The translations under genes were made by a program, and so were the position numbers. Shown here piece after piece: positions 31,867-38,049 of a stretch of 64,000 bases of DNA. Below the pieces are notes generated by a model that ran no database searches, had not been told where the DNA came from, and worked only from the letters and a program-made list of their open reading frames with translations. The first letter of the stretch is position 1. Each line of letters starts with the position of its first letter. Origin of the DNA: Candidatus Zipacnadia bacterium (GTDB lineage: Bacteria > Armatimonadota > Zipacnadia > Zipacnadales > UBA5352); contig JALGSW010000011.1 of assembly GCA_029821635.1 (NCBI GenBank), positions 1 to 64,000 of the forward strand, written 5' to 3'.

Positions 31867-33933
31867 TCACTCCTCCGCGGACACGTGCAGAAGCTCCCGG
31901 TAGAACGTGTTCGTGGCGCCGTCGGGCGCGGTTACCTCGATCGTGATGAGATTGCGGCCCGGCGCGAGCGTCACATCATGCGAGAAGCGAGAGTAGCCCA
32001 GCCACGGCGGCACTTCGACCGGCTCGCCATTGATCGTTACCGTCGCGCCTGCGCGGCAGGCGCCCCAGATCGTCGCCTGTGCAGGCGAGGTCAGCTCGAC
32101 CTCGCTGCCCGAGACAGGCTTGATCGTGGCCGGCGTGCTCAGCAGCGCGCTCAAAGGCGACGCGCTCACCAGCGCCAGCGGCTCGCGCCCCAGCGCCTCG
32201 ATCTCATTCGCGATAAGCTGCCGGAAGCGATGGATCCACGCCGCGTCCGCACGGTAGCTCTGCAGCCGGAAGCCGGTCGCGAGCGTGCTCGCCCATGACT
32301 CGGCCGCGAACTGCGCCTGCAGGCCCTCCTCAAGCTCCCCGTACGCGCCCAGCTTCTCCACCGCGGCCTCGGCCCGCTCCTCCAGCAGCATCAGCATGTC
32401 GTACTCATCCATGCCCTGCCGGAAGGCCTCCCAGCGCAGCGACGAGCGCCAGACGGGGTCGTGCTCGCGCGGCGGGTAGAGCAGGTGGCCGTTGCCGAAG
32501 TCGTAGTACGTCTTGTCCCGCCTCTCGCTCTTGATCGGCCGGATCTCGGTCCACGGGTCCGGCTCGCCCTCGTACTCGTCGCCATAGCCCCCACCGTAGC
32601 TGCGCAGCGACCACCAGAGCGCTCCCGTGAAGCCGTTCTTCGCCAGAGCCGCCGGGAAGAGGCGCATCGCGCCGGGGTTCCACTCAGCATTGAGCATGTA
32701 CGCCGAGTTGAGGTACGCCCACATCTCCATGCCGTGCGCCCGGCGGATCAGCCACTGCTCGGGCGCCTCGTCCGCGCGCACCGCGAAGAGGTGCCAGCCC
32801 GGACACCAGATGTCCAGATGCTCCGCCAGCTCGTCGCTCATAGAGTTCGTGGTCAGGAGGATGCGCAGTTCGGGCCAGACGGCCTTCGCCCGGCGGCACA
32901 TCTCCGCGGTCAGCGGGAACATCTCCTCGGGAAGCTCGTCGCCGATCTTCCAGATCACCCGGTCGGCCCAGCCGCGCTCGCGCAGGTGGTCGCCCACGCC
33001 GCGCATGTACTGCTCGAAGAGCGGCCAGAACTCGTCCGAACCGACAGCGACCGGCCTGCTCAGGTACCTGTCGCGCGGTCCCCGGCTGGTCAGCGGCATT
33101 GTCGGCGGCACGCCGATGGTCAAGAAGCCAAGCTCGTCGAGGAGCAGTTCCGCCTGCTCGTCATACTCCTCGAAGCCGAGTGTCATGACACCATTGTCGT
33201 CAACGTCGATCTCGATGCCGGCGGCCCCGTACTTGAGCGTATTCACGTCGAGCTCGCGCAGGCGGCGGAAGACCTCTGGATCGCGCTCGACGGTGCTTGA
33301 GTAGTTGATCAGCCGATGCTCCTCCGGCAGGGCGATCTCCCAGACGGTGAGCGCGACCGGCACCGTCGCGGAGAATCCGCCGCCCTCGACGGTGACGCTG
33401 CCCGCATACTCGCCGGCCTCCGCGTCGCGCGGGACCTCGATCGTCAGCAGGAGCGTGGTATTCGTGCCCGCCGGTGCGTCGAAGGGCCCCGGCGGCTCCA
33501 GCGGATCGGGCAGCATCCCGCTCTGGCCGGTGCGCAGGCCGTAGTGGTAGCTTCCGCGCCGCACCTGCGTGTATGCGACACGCTCCCACCTCCACGCTTC
33601 CGCGGGAATCGCTCCCGGCCCATCGAGGGCGCTGAAGCGCAGGTCGAGGCCGGTCAGCGCGGCCGTGGGGCGCAGGACGAGCTGCACCTGCTCGCTCTCA
33701 CCTCGTGCGGCAGCCAGCTCGACGCGTTCGGCGCGCAGGAGGTCTTCGGCTTGCGCGAGGTCCTCGTCAGGGAGGACCTTCTGCGTCGGGCAGCGCACGA
33801 AGATCGCGCAGTCTGCGCCATCGTGCAGCAGCACGGGCCGCATCAGTTGCGGATCAGGCAGGTCGGCGTGCGCGGCGGCAACCGCAAGCGCAAGCCCCAG
33901 GGTCAGCAGCATTGTCCGCTTCATCGCCATCAC
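31867..33933 (-). CDS. Secreted DUF4091-type (glycoside hydrolase-like) protein
   Basis: Signal peptide; VPRDAEAGEYAGSVTVEGGGF; SLRWEAFRQGMDEYDMLMLLEERA C-terminal helix typical of DUF4091 proteins. Confidence 0.72.
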   Translation of the reverse strand: MMAMKRTMLLTLGLALAVAAAHADLPDPQLMRPVLLHDGADCAIFVRCPTQKVLPDEDLAQAEDLLRAERVELAAARGESEQVQLVLRPTAALTGLDLRFSALDGPGAIPAEAWRWERVAYTQVRRGSYHYGLRTGQSGMLPDPLEPPGPFDAPAGTNTTLLLTIEVPRDAEAGEYAGSVTVEGGGFSATVPVALTVWEIALPEEHRLINYSSTVERDPEVFRRLRELDVNTLKYGAAGIEIDVDDNGVMTLGFEEYDEQAELLLDELGFLTIGVPPTMPLTSRGPRDRYLSRPVAVGSDEFWPLFEQYMRGVGDHLRERGWADRVIWKIGDELPEEMFPLTAEMCRRAKAVWPELRILLTTNSMSDELAEHLDIWCPGWHLFAVRADEAPEQWLIRRAHGMEMWAYLNSAYMLNAEWNPGAMRLFPAALAKNGFTGALWWSLRSYGGGYGDEYEGEPDPWTEIRPIKSERRDKTYYDFGNGHLLYPPREHDPVWRSSLRWEAFRQGMDEYDMLMLLEERAEAAVEKLGAYGELEEGLQAQFAAESWASTLATGFRLQSYRADAAWIHRFRQLIANEIEALGREPLALVSASPLSALLSTPATIKPVSGSEVELTSPAQATIWGACRAGATVTINGEPVEVPPWLGYSRFSHDVTLAPGRNLITIEVTAPDGATNTFYRELLHVSAEE

Positions 33934-36900
33934 CCCGCAGGGAGCTCTACCGCGTTATTCGCCTCGTAGAGCTCCGTGATTACGTCTTCCGGGTCAACGA
34001 TCACGGTGAACTGCCGCCCGCGGCGGTCGTTCGGCACCTCGAAGGTCAGCTCCACCACGCGCGCATTGCAGTCGCTCGGCGCCTCCAGCGGCCCCGCCGT
34101 CGCGGTCAGGTCGGGCTTGCCGTCATCGCCGCGGGCGATCACCGTGAACTGCGGCGCCTCTCCCCCACCGATGTTGTGCACGCGCGCGGTAATGGTCGTC
34201 GCGTCGTCGCTGATCACCGTGTCCTGCGGGCAGATCGCCAGGTCCGGGCGCGCGTAGTAGTCCTCGCCCGACGCCTCGATCTGCTCGATCCGCAGCGCGA
34301 CGGTGGTGCGCGGCGGCAGCTCCACGTCGAGCGCCGAGCCCTTCGCGAGGCTCAGCTCGCGCGTGGAGGTGGCCTCGTCGGGCACGCCGTCCTCGTCCGC
34401 GTCCGGGCCGATGGTCACGCGGTAGGAGCCCGGCTCCAGCCGCCAGAGCGTGATCGCGCCCTGCTGCGCCCTCGCCTCGAAGTTGTAGGCCATCAGGCTC
34501 AGGCTCTGCGCGTCGGCCTCGAGCACCCACGCGGCGAAGTCCGGCGACATCCCCTGCCAGGAAATCGCGTGCGTCGGGTAGATGTAGTTGCGGTAGCCGG
34601 GCTGGCCGCCGAGGTACATGCGGTCCACGAGGTCCTTGGAGATCGCCACGCGGTCGGCCGACTGCTCGATCCAGGTGGCGGTAGCCGGGCTGGCCGCCGA
34701 GGTACATGCGGTCCACGAGGTCCTTGGAGATCGCCACGCGGTCGGCCGACTGCTCGATCCAGGTGTGCATCGGAAAGAGCAGCTCAATGCGCTCCCACGA
34801 GGCTTTGAGCGCAGTCAGCAGCGCGTCGCGGTCGCCGAACTGCTTCCACGCCGCGTAGTGCACCTGCGTGCGCGGGTCGTTGCCCATCGAGGGCTTGAGG
34901 TCTCCATAGGAGTAGCCGTCGGCCTGCGCGCGGAGCATCTCGGCGTAGTCGCCCATGACCGAGCGCTCGACCATGTCCGGCATCATGTTCGCGTCGATCA
35001 TGCCCTGGTCGAGCCAGACGCGGTGGGCGAGCAGGTAGCGGTCATCGCCGGTCCACTCGGCCAGCGCAAGGTACATGTTCTCTGAGCCGTAGCCGCCGAA
35101 GGCGTGGGTGGTGCTGACGACCCCGCGGTCCTCGAAGCGCACGGCACTGGGCAGGTAGCTCACGCGGCCCTCGATCGGCCCGTTTTCGGCGATGCTCTTC
35201 TCCACGAGGTCGAGCCAGGCATCGCCATACTCCCGCACGAGGCGCGTGGCGCGGTCATTGCGCGACCACCAACCGACGTAGAGCGGCCCGTGCAGCATTA
35301 GCGTGCTGGAGAGCACGTCCTGATCGTAGGGCGTCTCGGTGACGATCTGCCGCGCACCGTAGAGCTTCGACTTGAAGTGCCGGAAGCCTTGCGTCATGCC
35401 GGTGAGGTGCTCGTCCACGGTGCGCGTGCCATCCATCAGCCGCTCCATGTAGACCGGGTTGCCCGGATACATCTCCGCGGCGCGGCACAGCGCGTTGATG
35501 CCGTCCTCGTAGGCGTGCAGCGGGTCGGTGGTGCGGCGGTTGATGCCGTCCTCGATGAGCACGTCGTAGCAGGTGTCGGCGAGGCGCCGCACCGAGTCGG
35601 CAATGCGCCCGTCCACGTCCGAGATCATGCTCAGCGACACCCAGTCGTTGATGAGGTCGGTATCATCGCCGAGGAAGTGCCCGAACTCCCCGTTGGGCGC
35701 CTGCCGGTGGTCGATCCACCAGTTCACGAAGTCCAGGTCCCTCCGCAGAGCCGCGCGCTGGTAGGCGGCCCACTCAGGCGCGCCCGCTGCGTCCGGGGGC
35801 TGCAGGGCCGTGCGATCGACCGGCTCGCTCGGGTGCGTCCAGATGTGCACCGCGCGGGCGTAGTAGTCATCGGGGAAGCGCGTGTGCAGGTCGTTCAGCG
35901 CGCGATGCAGCTCCATGAACACGCCCGTGCGCTCGGCGAGCCGGTCCATCGCAACCTTCCCCCACGGCCGCGGCTCGGAGACGTCAATGAAGCGATCCTT
36001 GACGTAGGCGAGCTGATCGTGGCGGTACTGCCCGGCCAGCGCCTCCTTCGGCTCGATGAGCAGGTCGAAGCGCGACTGGTGGTCGGCGTCCCAGACCAAC
36101 TCGGCATCATTGCTCGCGAGCAGCCTGATCCAGACCGGGCGGCCGTCGGGGATCACCGTGTCGCGGATGTCGAGCGTAAGGTCGAGGGCCTGCACGCCAT
36201 CCCACGCGCCCTGCGAGGTAACCTCGAAGTCCGCGATCTGCCGCGATGGGACGATCGGGTCGGCGGCGAGCAGCCACAGCGTCGTGCCGGGCTGCAGGTC
36301 GCGGAAGTACAGGCGCGCGCGGATGGCCCCAAGCGCGCGGTCGGCGGAGTCGGCCGGCAGCATCAGGTGGTAGAAGCGCATAGCCTGCATCGGCAGCGCG
36401 CGGGCCTCGGCCGGGGCCTCGCGCGCGCAGCGCAGAGCGGCGCGGTCGTAGGGCTCATACTTGCTGACGATGACGCGCCCGATCTCCGACGACCAGTCGG
36501 TCCACGCGTCGGCGGAGAGGTAGTGCCGCTCGGGCTCACCGGAGAGGTCGCCCGCGTCCTCGCGGAAGGTCTCGAAGAAGCCGATCTCGCGGATGCGCGT
36601 GGGCGGTGGCGGATTCTCTGGCTGCCCCTCCGCATCGGCCTCGGGATCGGGATCGGCGAAGAAGGTCATCGCGGTCTGCGTCTGCGCCCCGTCGAACTCC
36701 CGCGCCAGCAGCGGCTGATCGCTGCGTAGCGGCATCCACGCCTCGCCCTCGGGCTCGAAGATCTGCTCGCCGCGGTACATCTGCCCAAGGCAGTGCCCGC
36801 GGATGCGCAGGTAGTCCCAGCGCTCGCCCTCGTCAAGGCTCAGGATCAGCCCGCCCTCGTCCTGGAAGGAGTAGCCGTGGTAGGTCAGCGGCCAGCGTGT

Positions 36901-37872
36901 GAAGCGGTCGCCATCGCAGACCTTCCACGCCTGCGAGTAGATCGCGCGGGCGTCGTCGATCCCGGCCTGGCGGACGAGCAGCGTCTCATCTTCGCCCGCA
37001 GGCTCGATGCCGAGCAGCGGCTGGCCCTCCCAGCCGAGGTAGTCGGCGCGGTGGGCGGCGAGTTCAGGCGTCCACGCAGCCGCGACCGCGGGCAAGTCCG
37101 GCTGGCCCTCGTAGACCACTCGGACCTCCTCGTCGCTGAGCGGTCGCGAGAACACGCGCAGCTCATCGAGCGCGAAGGGCTGCTGAGTGCCTCCCCAGTA
37201 GTTCCATTCGCCGATGAGCAGCTTGTCCGGCTCGAGGTCCTCGGTCTGCCAGGTGCGCGCTTCCGAGCGGGTGCGCTCGCCGTTCACGTAGAGGCGGAAG
37301 CCCTCGCTTTCATCCCACGCGAAGGCGAGGTGATACCAGGTCTCGCCCTCCCACGGCTCTGACTCGAAGTCGAAGCTGCCGCCCCACGGTCCGTGGACGA
37401 GGATGCGCCCGTAACGCCCGCGCAGGCCGTATGCCATCGCCTCGCGCGAGACGGAGGTGATGCTGAGCAGGCTGTGGTGGACCTGACCGATGGGTCGGTC
37501 GAACTTGACCCAGAACGCAACCGTGCCGCGCCGGAGGTTGACGTTGCCGGAGGCGTCGTAGCGATGCGACTGCCCGCGCTCCATGCGCAGAGCCTTCTCC
37601 ACCACGCCCTCGGTGTCACGCGCGCGGTACAGGCCGATGTCCTTCTGATTGCCGCGATCGTAGGGGTTGAGCACCACGTCGCGGGAGCCGCGGGCGATGT
37701 CCGCCTCCAGGCCCCGCCCGTAGAAGTCGGAGTAGCCGTCGTTGAAGGTCGCGCGCAGCGTCTCCGCCTGGTCGGGCGGGAGATCGACCGCAACGGGCGC
37801 GTACGCCTGCGCGTAGACGAGCGCGCAGGCGATCAGGGCGAGGAGCGCAAACGCCGGGCGGCTGAGCTTCAT
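33930..37872 (-). pseudogene. LamG/toroid/CARDB-type large secreted protein split by an 88-bp tandem duplication
   Basis: ORF 34123-37887 and ORF 33930-34787 each carry IEQSADRVAISKDLVDRMYLGGQPGYR; removing 88 bp restores one frame. N-terminal LamG-like domain, C-terminal CARDB-like domain (RPDLAICPQDTVISDDATTITARVHNIGGGEAPQFTV). Confidence 0.85.
34590..34765. repeat. Exact 2 x 88-bp tandem duplication
   Basis: 34590-34677 = 34678-34765 (GCGGTAGCCGGGCTGGCCGCCGAGGTACATGCGGTCCACGAGG...CTCGATCCAGGTG). Confidence 0.95.
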
Positions 37873-38049
37873 TGAAGTGACCTCCATGGATGGGCCGGCT
37901 TGTCCCGCGGTGGTTCAGGTTCCCGTGTGAGGTCGCCCACACCTGCCGGATCGCTGCAGGGCGCTCGCGCGGCCCCCCCGGCTTGACTCCCGCCCCCCAT
38001 CGTCGTACCCTGCCCGCGCAGGTCAGTGAGACCAACCGGGAGGCCGACC

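Follow-up and report, generated by a model that had tools for sequence, protein, structure and literature searches.

An exact 88-bp tandem duplication splits a minus-strand gene in a draft MAG, and in all likelihood it is an assembly artefact in which two contigs that overlap by 88 bp were concatenated without being merged. The evidence for this explanation includes a series of equivalent duplications in the same MAG, which interrupt other, unrelated conserved genes. All of these duplications are shorter than the 114-bp overlap of the assembly, with no more than 1 bp of microhomology at their junctions. Judged by the alignments with related genomes, the gene in the organism itself is very probably single-copy and continuous, encoding a secreted protein with LamG and CARDB domains like those of its relatives.

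The split gene and its intact counterparts

The window, i.e. the whole 64,000-nt stretch of DNA that was analyzed, is part of a 78,724-bp contig (C230) of the draft MAG G000, which comprises 247 contigs and 5.01 Mb and is 87.55% complete. Comparison of the sequence within the window identified two identical, abutting 88-bp units at positions 34590-34677 and 34678-34765. When each position was compared with the one located 88 nt further on, the run of matches was exactly 88 long, with mismatches on both flanks and no extra homology at the junction. Both the identity of the units and their mismatched flanks had been claimed by the sequence-only reading, and both were reproduced here. Chance cannot account for an exact match of this length, and a scan of all 64,000 nt revealed no other tandem repeat like this pair in the window.

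The two minus-strand open reading frames described by the same reading were recovered as claimed, and the duplicated stretch of 29 residues is present in both of them. The N-terminal part of the split gene (34123-37887, minus strand) encodes 1254 aa with a Laminin_G_3 domain at residues 117-255 (Pfam), and beyond the first copy to be read its codons are nonsense in the wrong frame. The C-terminal part (33930-34787, minus strand) encodes 285 aa from a called TTG start and contains a CARDB domain (Pfam), while the residues preceding the duplication are out of frame. No family was assigned to the split protein in a search of NCBIfam. The hits of a sequence search against PDB were all weak, with E values of about 1e-4. 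They lie within the LamG-like stretch and match clostridial neurotoxin binding domains in their lectin-fold part. These matches reflect a generic ConA-like fold and are no sign of a toxin function. The downstream neighbor is a GH123-like glycoside hydrolase gene (31867-33933, minus strand), the start of which overlaps the end of the split gene. Because this gene adjoins it, the product of the split gene is probably a secreted carbohydrate-binding or carbohydrate-processing protein.

Among 101 related genomes, long uninterrupted counterparts of the gene were found in five members of the same family (G007, G006, G001, G009 and G008, at 57-77% identity) and in one more distant genome of the same class (G041, 33% identity). 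Matches equal in length to those of G001 and G008 were obtained from two further records, one named as a WS1 MAG and the other as a Candidatus Zipacnadia MAG, which may represent the same genomes. In translated alignments, the proteins of the relatives follow the window in frame -2 to position 34675 and then in frame -3 from position 34676 to about 33933, which bears out the frameshift that had been proposed for the gene. The frame jump, located at the boundary between the copies, repeats only residues of the duplicated stretch. It was identical in the alignment of locus L007, for which a reverse-frame open reading frame served as the query. Nucleotide comparison showed one copy of the unit in all five relatives of the same family that have a counterpart (G001 and G006-G009), and the two-copy state was found in none of them. 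Since the relatives are single-copy and uninterrupted, the one-copy, one-frame state is, as far as these genomes tell, the norm, and the one-copy gene corresponds to the intact form that had been predicted for it. The 34677/34678 boundary between the two units is the likely position of the false join.

Recurrent duplications in the MAG

In a scan of 1.74 Mb of the MAG (about 35%), exact tandem duplications were sought at periods from 20 to 600 bp. Seven exact two-copy duplications of 29-95 bp were detected in coding sequence, including the 88-bp duplication of the window, which splits the LamG/CARDB gene. The lengths of six of the seven are not multiples of three, and all six are located at a frame change or a loss of homology in conserved genes. 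For instance, a 40-bp duplication breaks the frame of argJ (L120:14882-16187; G000:C33, about 34882-36187), the only argJ detected in the MAG, whose two open reading frames match positions 3-175 and 160-374 of the ArgJ profile. Matches to the whole profile in one frame were obtained in six of eight relatives, with no match in G006 and only a short one in G007. A 95-bp duplication (L138:12247-12436, C94) splits a gene whose counterpart in G008 is an open frame of 779 codons, and a 50-bp duplication (L072:18429-18528, C228) splits an amidohydrolase-type gene. Homology between the first half of this latter gene and the relatives ends near residue 269, which coincides with the copy boundary, and the relatives have an uninterrupted frame of 538-586 codons. 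At a 31-bp duplication (L082:11746-11807, C239), homology to the T2SSE ATPases of relatives ends at the copy boundary, although a natural C-terminus close by is also possible at this site. In an AtuA-family gene, a 29-bp duplication (L062:11946-12003, C37) shifts the frame close to the start. The remaining 51-bp duplication (L063:294-395, C38) adds 17 residues in frame, so that the reading frame gives no verdict on it. The same lesion thus recurs in unrelated genes of one assembly, at seven sites in 1.74 Mb, and with argJ and the amidohydrolase, T2SSE ATPase and AtuA-family genes among those hit it is not confined to contingency-type loci. In the control genome G007, no such duplications were found in 0.32 Mb; at the rate of the MAG, a stretch of this size should contain about 1.3.

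Duplications that arise by slippage usually show microhomology at their junctions. Extra homology at the junction amounted to 0 bp in six of the duplications and to 1 bp in one, compared with a mean of 0.8 bp expected by chance at this base composition (P = 0.07 for at least six zeros out of seven), and there is no sign of slippage-type microhomology at the seven junctions.

Several other repeats were left out of the seven. Those in C4, C18 and C28 are low-complexity or short-unit arrays and are likely real or ambiguous, and a 60-bp repeat in C107 with 3 bp of extra homology is ambiguous. The 33-bp repeats of C3 and C80, also likely real or ambiguous, belong to an interspersed palindromic element. 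In the 1.74 Mb of the MAG there are 37 occurrences of the core of this element, CAGGCTTTCCAGCCTG or its reverse complement, at loci including L028:5526 and L124:13469, compared with none in 0.32 Mb of the relative G007. At two places the element is arranged in tandem with a 33-bp period. The element looks like a REP-type repeat.

The assembly overlap and a possible joining step

When 173 ends of the contigs that were read were compared, five pairs shared an overlap of exactly 114 bp, and these were the only perfect end overlaps of at least 15 bp. Overlaps of this exact and uniform length are the signature of a de Bruijn assembly with a largest k of 115. All seven duplications are shorter than this overlap (29-95 vs 114 bp), although the scan extended to periods of 600 bp. 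Runs of N were absent from the 1.15 Mb checked, with the exception of one wholly masked contig. This contig (G000:C220, locus L064; 2,733 bp) consists entirely of N, having been either withheld or masked.

These features suggest how the artefact could have arisen. Two contigs would truly overlap by 88 bp, which is less than the 114 bp (k-1) needed for merging, and the graph would leave contigs with an overlap below 114 bp unmerged. Pairing information would then join such contigs end to end with the overlap untrimmed. The 88-bp stretch would thereby be present twice and the reading frame shifted by one base. We infer both this joining step and the assembler, presumably IDBA-UD. The paper naming Zipacnadia describes MAGs assembled with IDBA-UD (PMC10290634), and IDBA-UD with --mink 65 and --maxk 115 was used for the metagenomes of a study covering Guaymas Basin (PMC9258230). 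IDBA-UD assemblies can leave overlaps uncollapsed, which results in duplicate sequence at joins (Chen et al. 2020, PMC7111523).

The duplication itself is ordinary and of little biological weight; it is useful as a quality warning on the MAG. About seven genes per 1.7 Mb, including the only detected argJ, are interrupted by exact duplications shorter than the overlap, and such genes would be mistaken for pseudogenes, missing functions or phase-variable loci.

Alternative explanations and known systems

Three causes had been offered for the duplication by the sequence-only reading, namely an assembly error, a recent mutation and a reversible switch. The equivalent duplications in unrelated genes of the MAG support the assembly error and disfavor the other two, and the switch found no backing. 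A genuine tandem duplication of very recent origin, inactivating the gene in all or part of the sampled population, would fit the exact identity of the units, and the split gene is not obviously essential. Such a mutation is made unlikely, however, by the five more frame-breaking duplications that about a third of the MAG contains, including that in its only detected argJ, by junctions that lack the microhomology usual for slippage and by lengths that without exception fall under the 114-bp assembly overlap.

A reversible phase switch, in which production of the full-length secreted protein would be turned on or off as the 88-bp unit is lost or gained, appears highly improbable. Secreted proteins are typical phase-variable targets, and a perfect 88-bp direct repeat could be removed by RecA-independent deletion, but two copies are present in no relative with a counterpart, and similar duplications in unrelated biosynthetic and secretion-ATPase genes are unlike a dedicated switch. 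Just as little credence is given to an unusual process that would make short, microhomology-free tandem duplications genome-wide and produce reversible frameshifts in many genes. Concatenation of unmerged contigs is thus the preferred explanation.

Among known systems, the duplication resembles phase variation by gain or loss of a tandem unit of a length not divisible by three, in having an exact direct repeat and a frameshift in a gene for a secreted protein. It differs in that only two copies are present, no variation is seen among the relatives and many unrelated genes of the MAG are hit. The local assembly errors reported for IDBA-UD and CLC (Chen et al. 2020, PMC7111523) likewise show duplicate sequence flanking a scaffold join, are repeated within one assembly and break genes; in contrast to the published copies, which are separated by Ns, those of the MAG abut without Ns.
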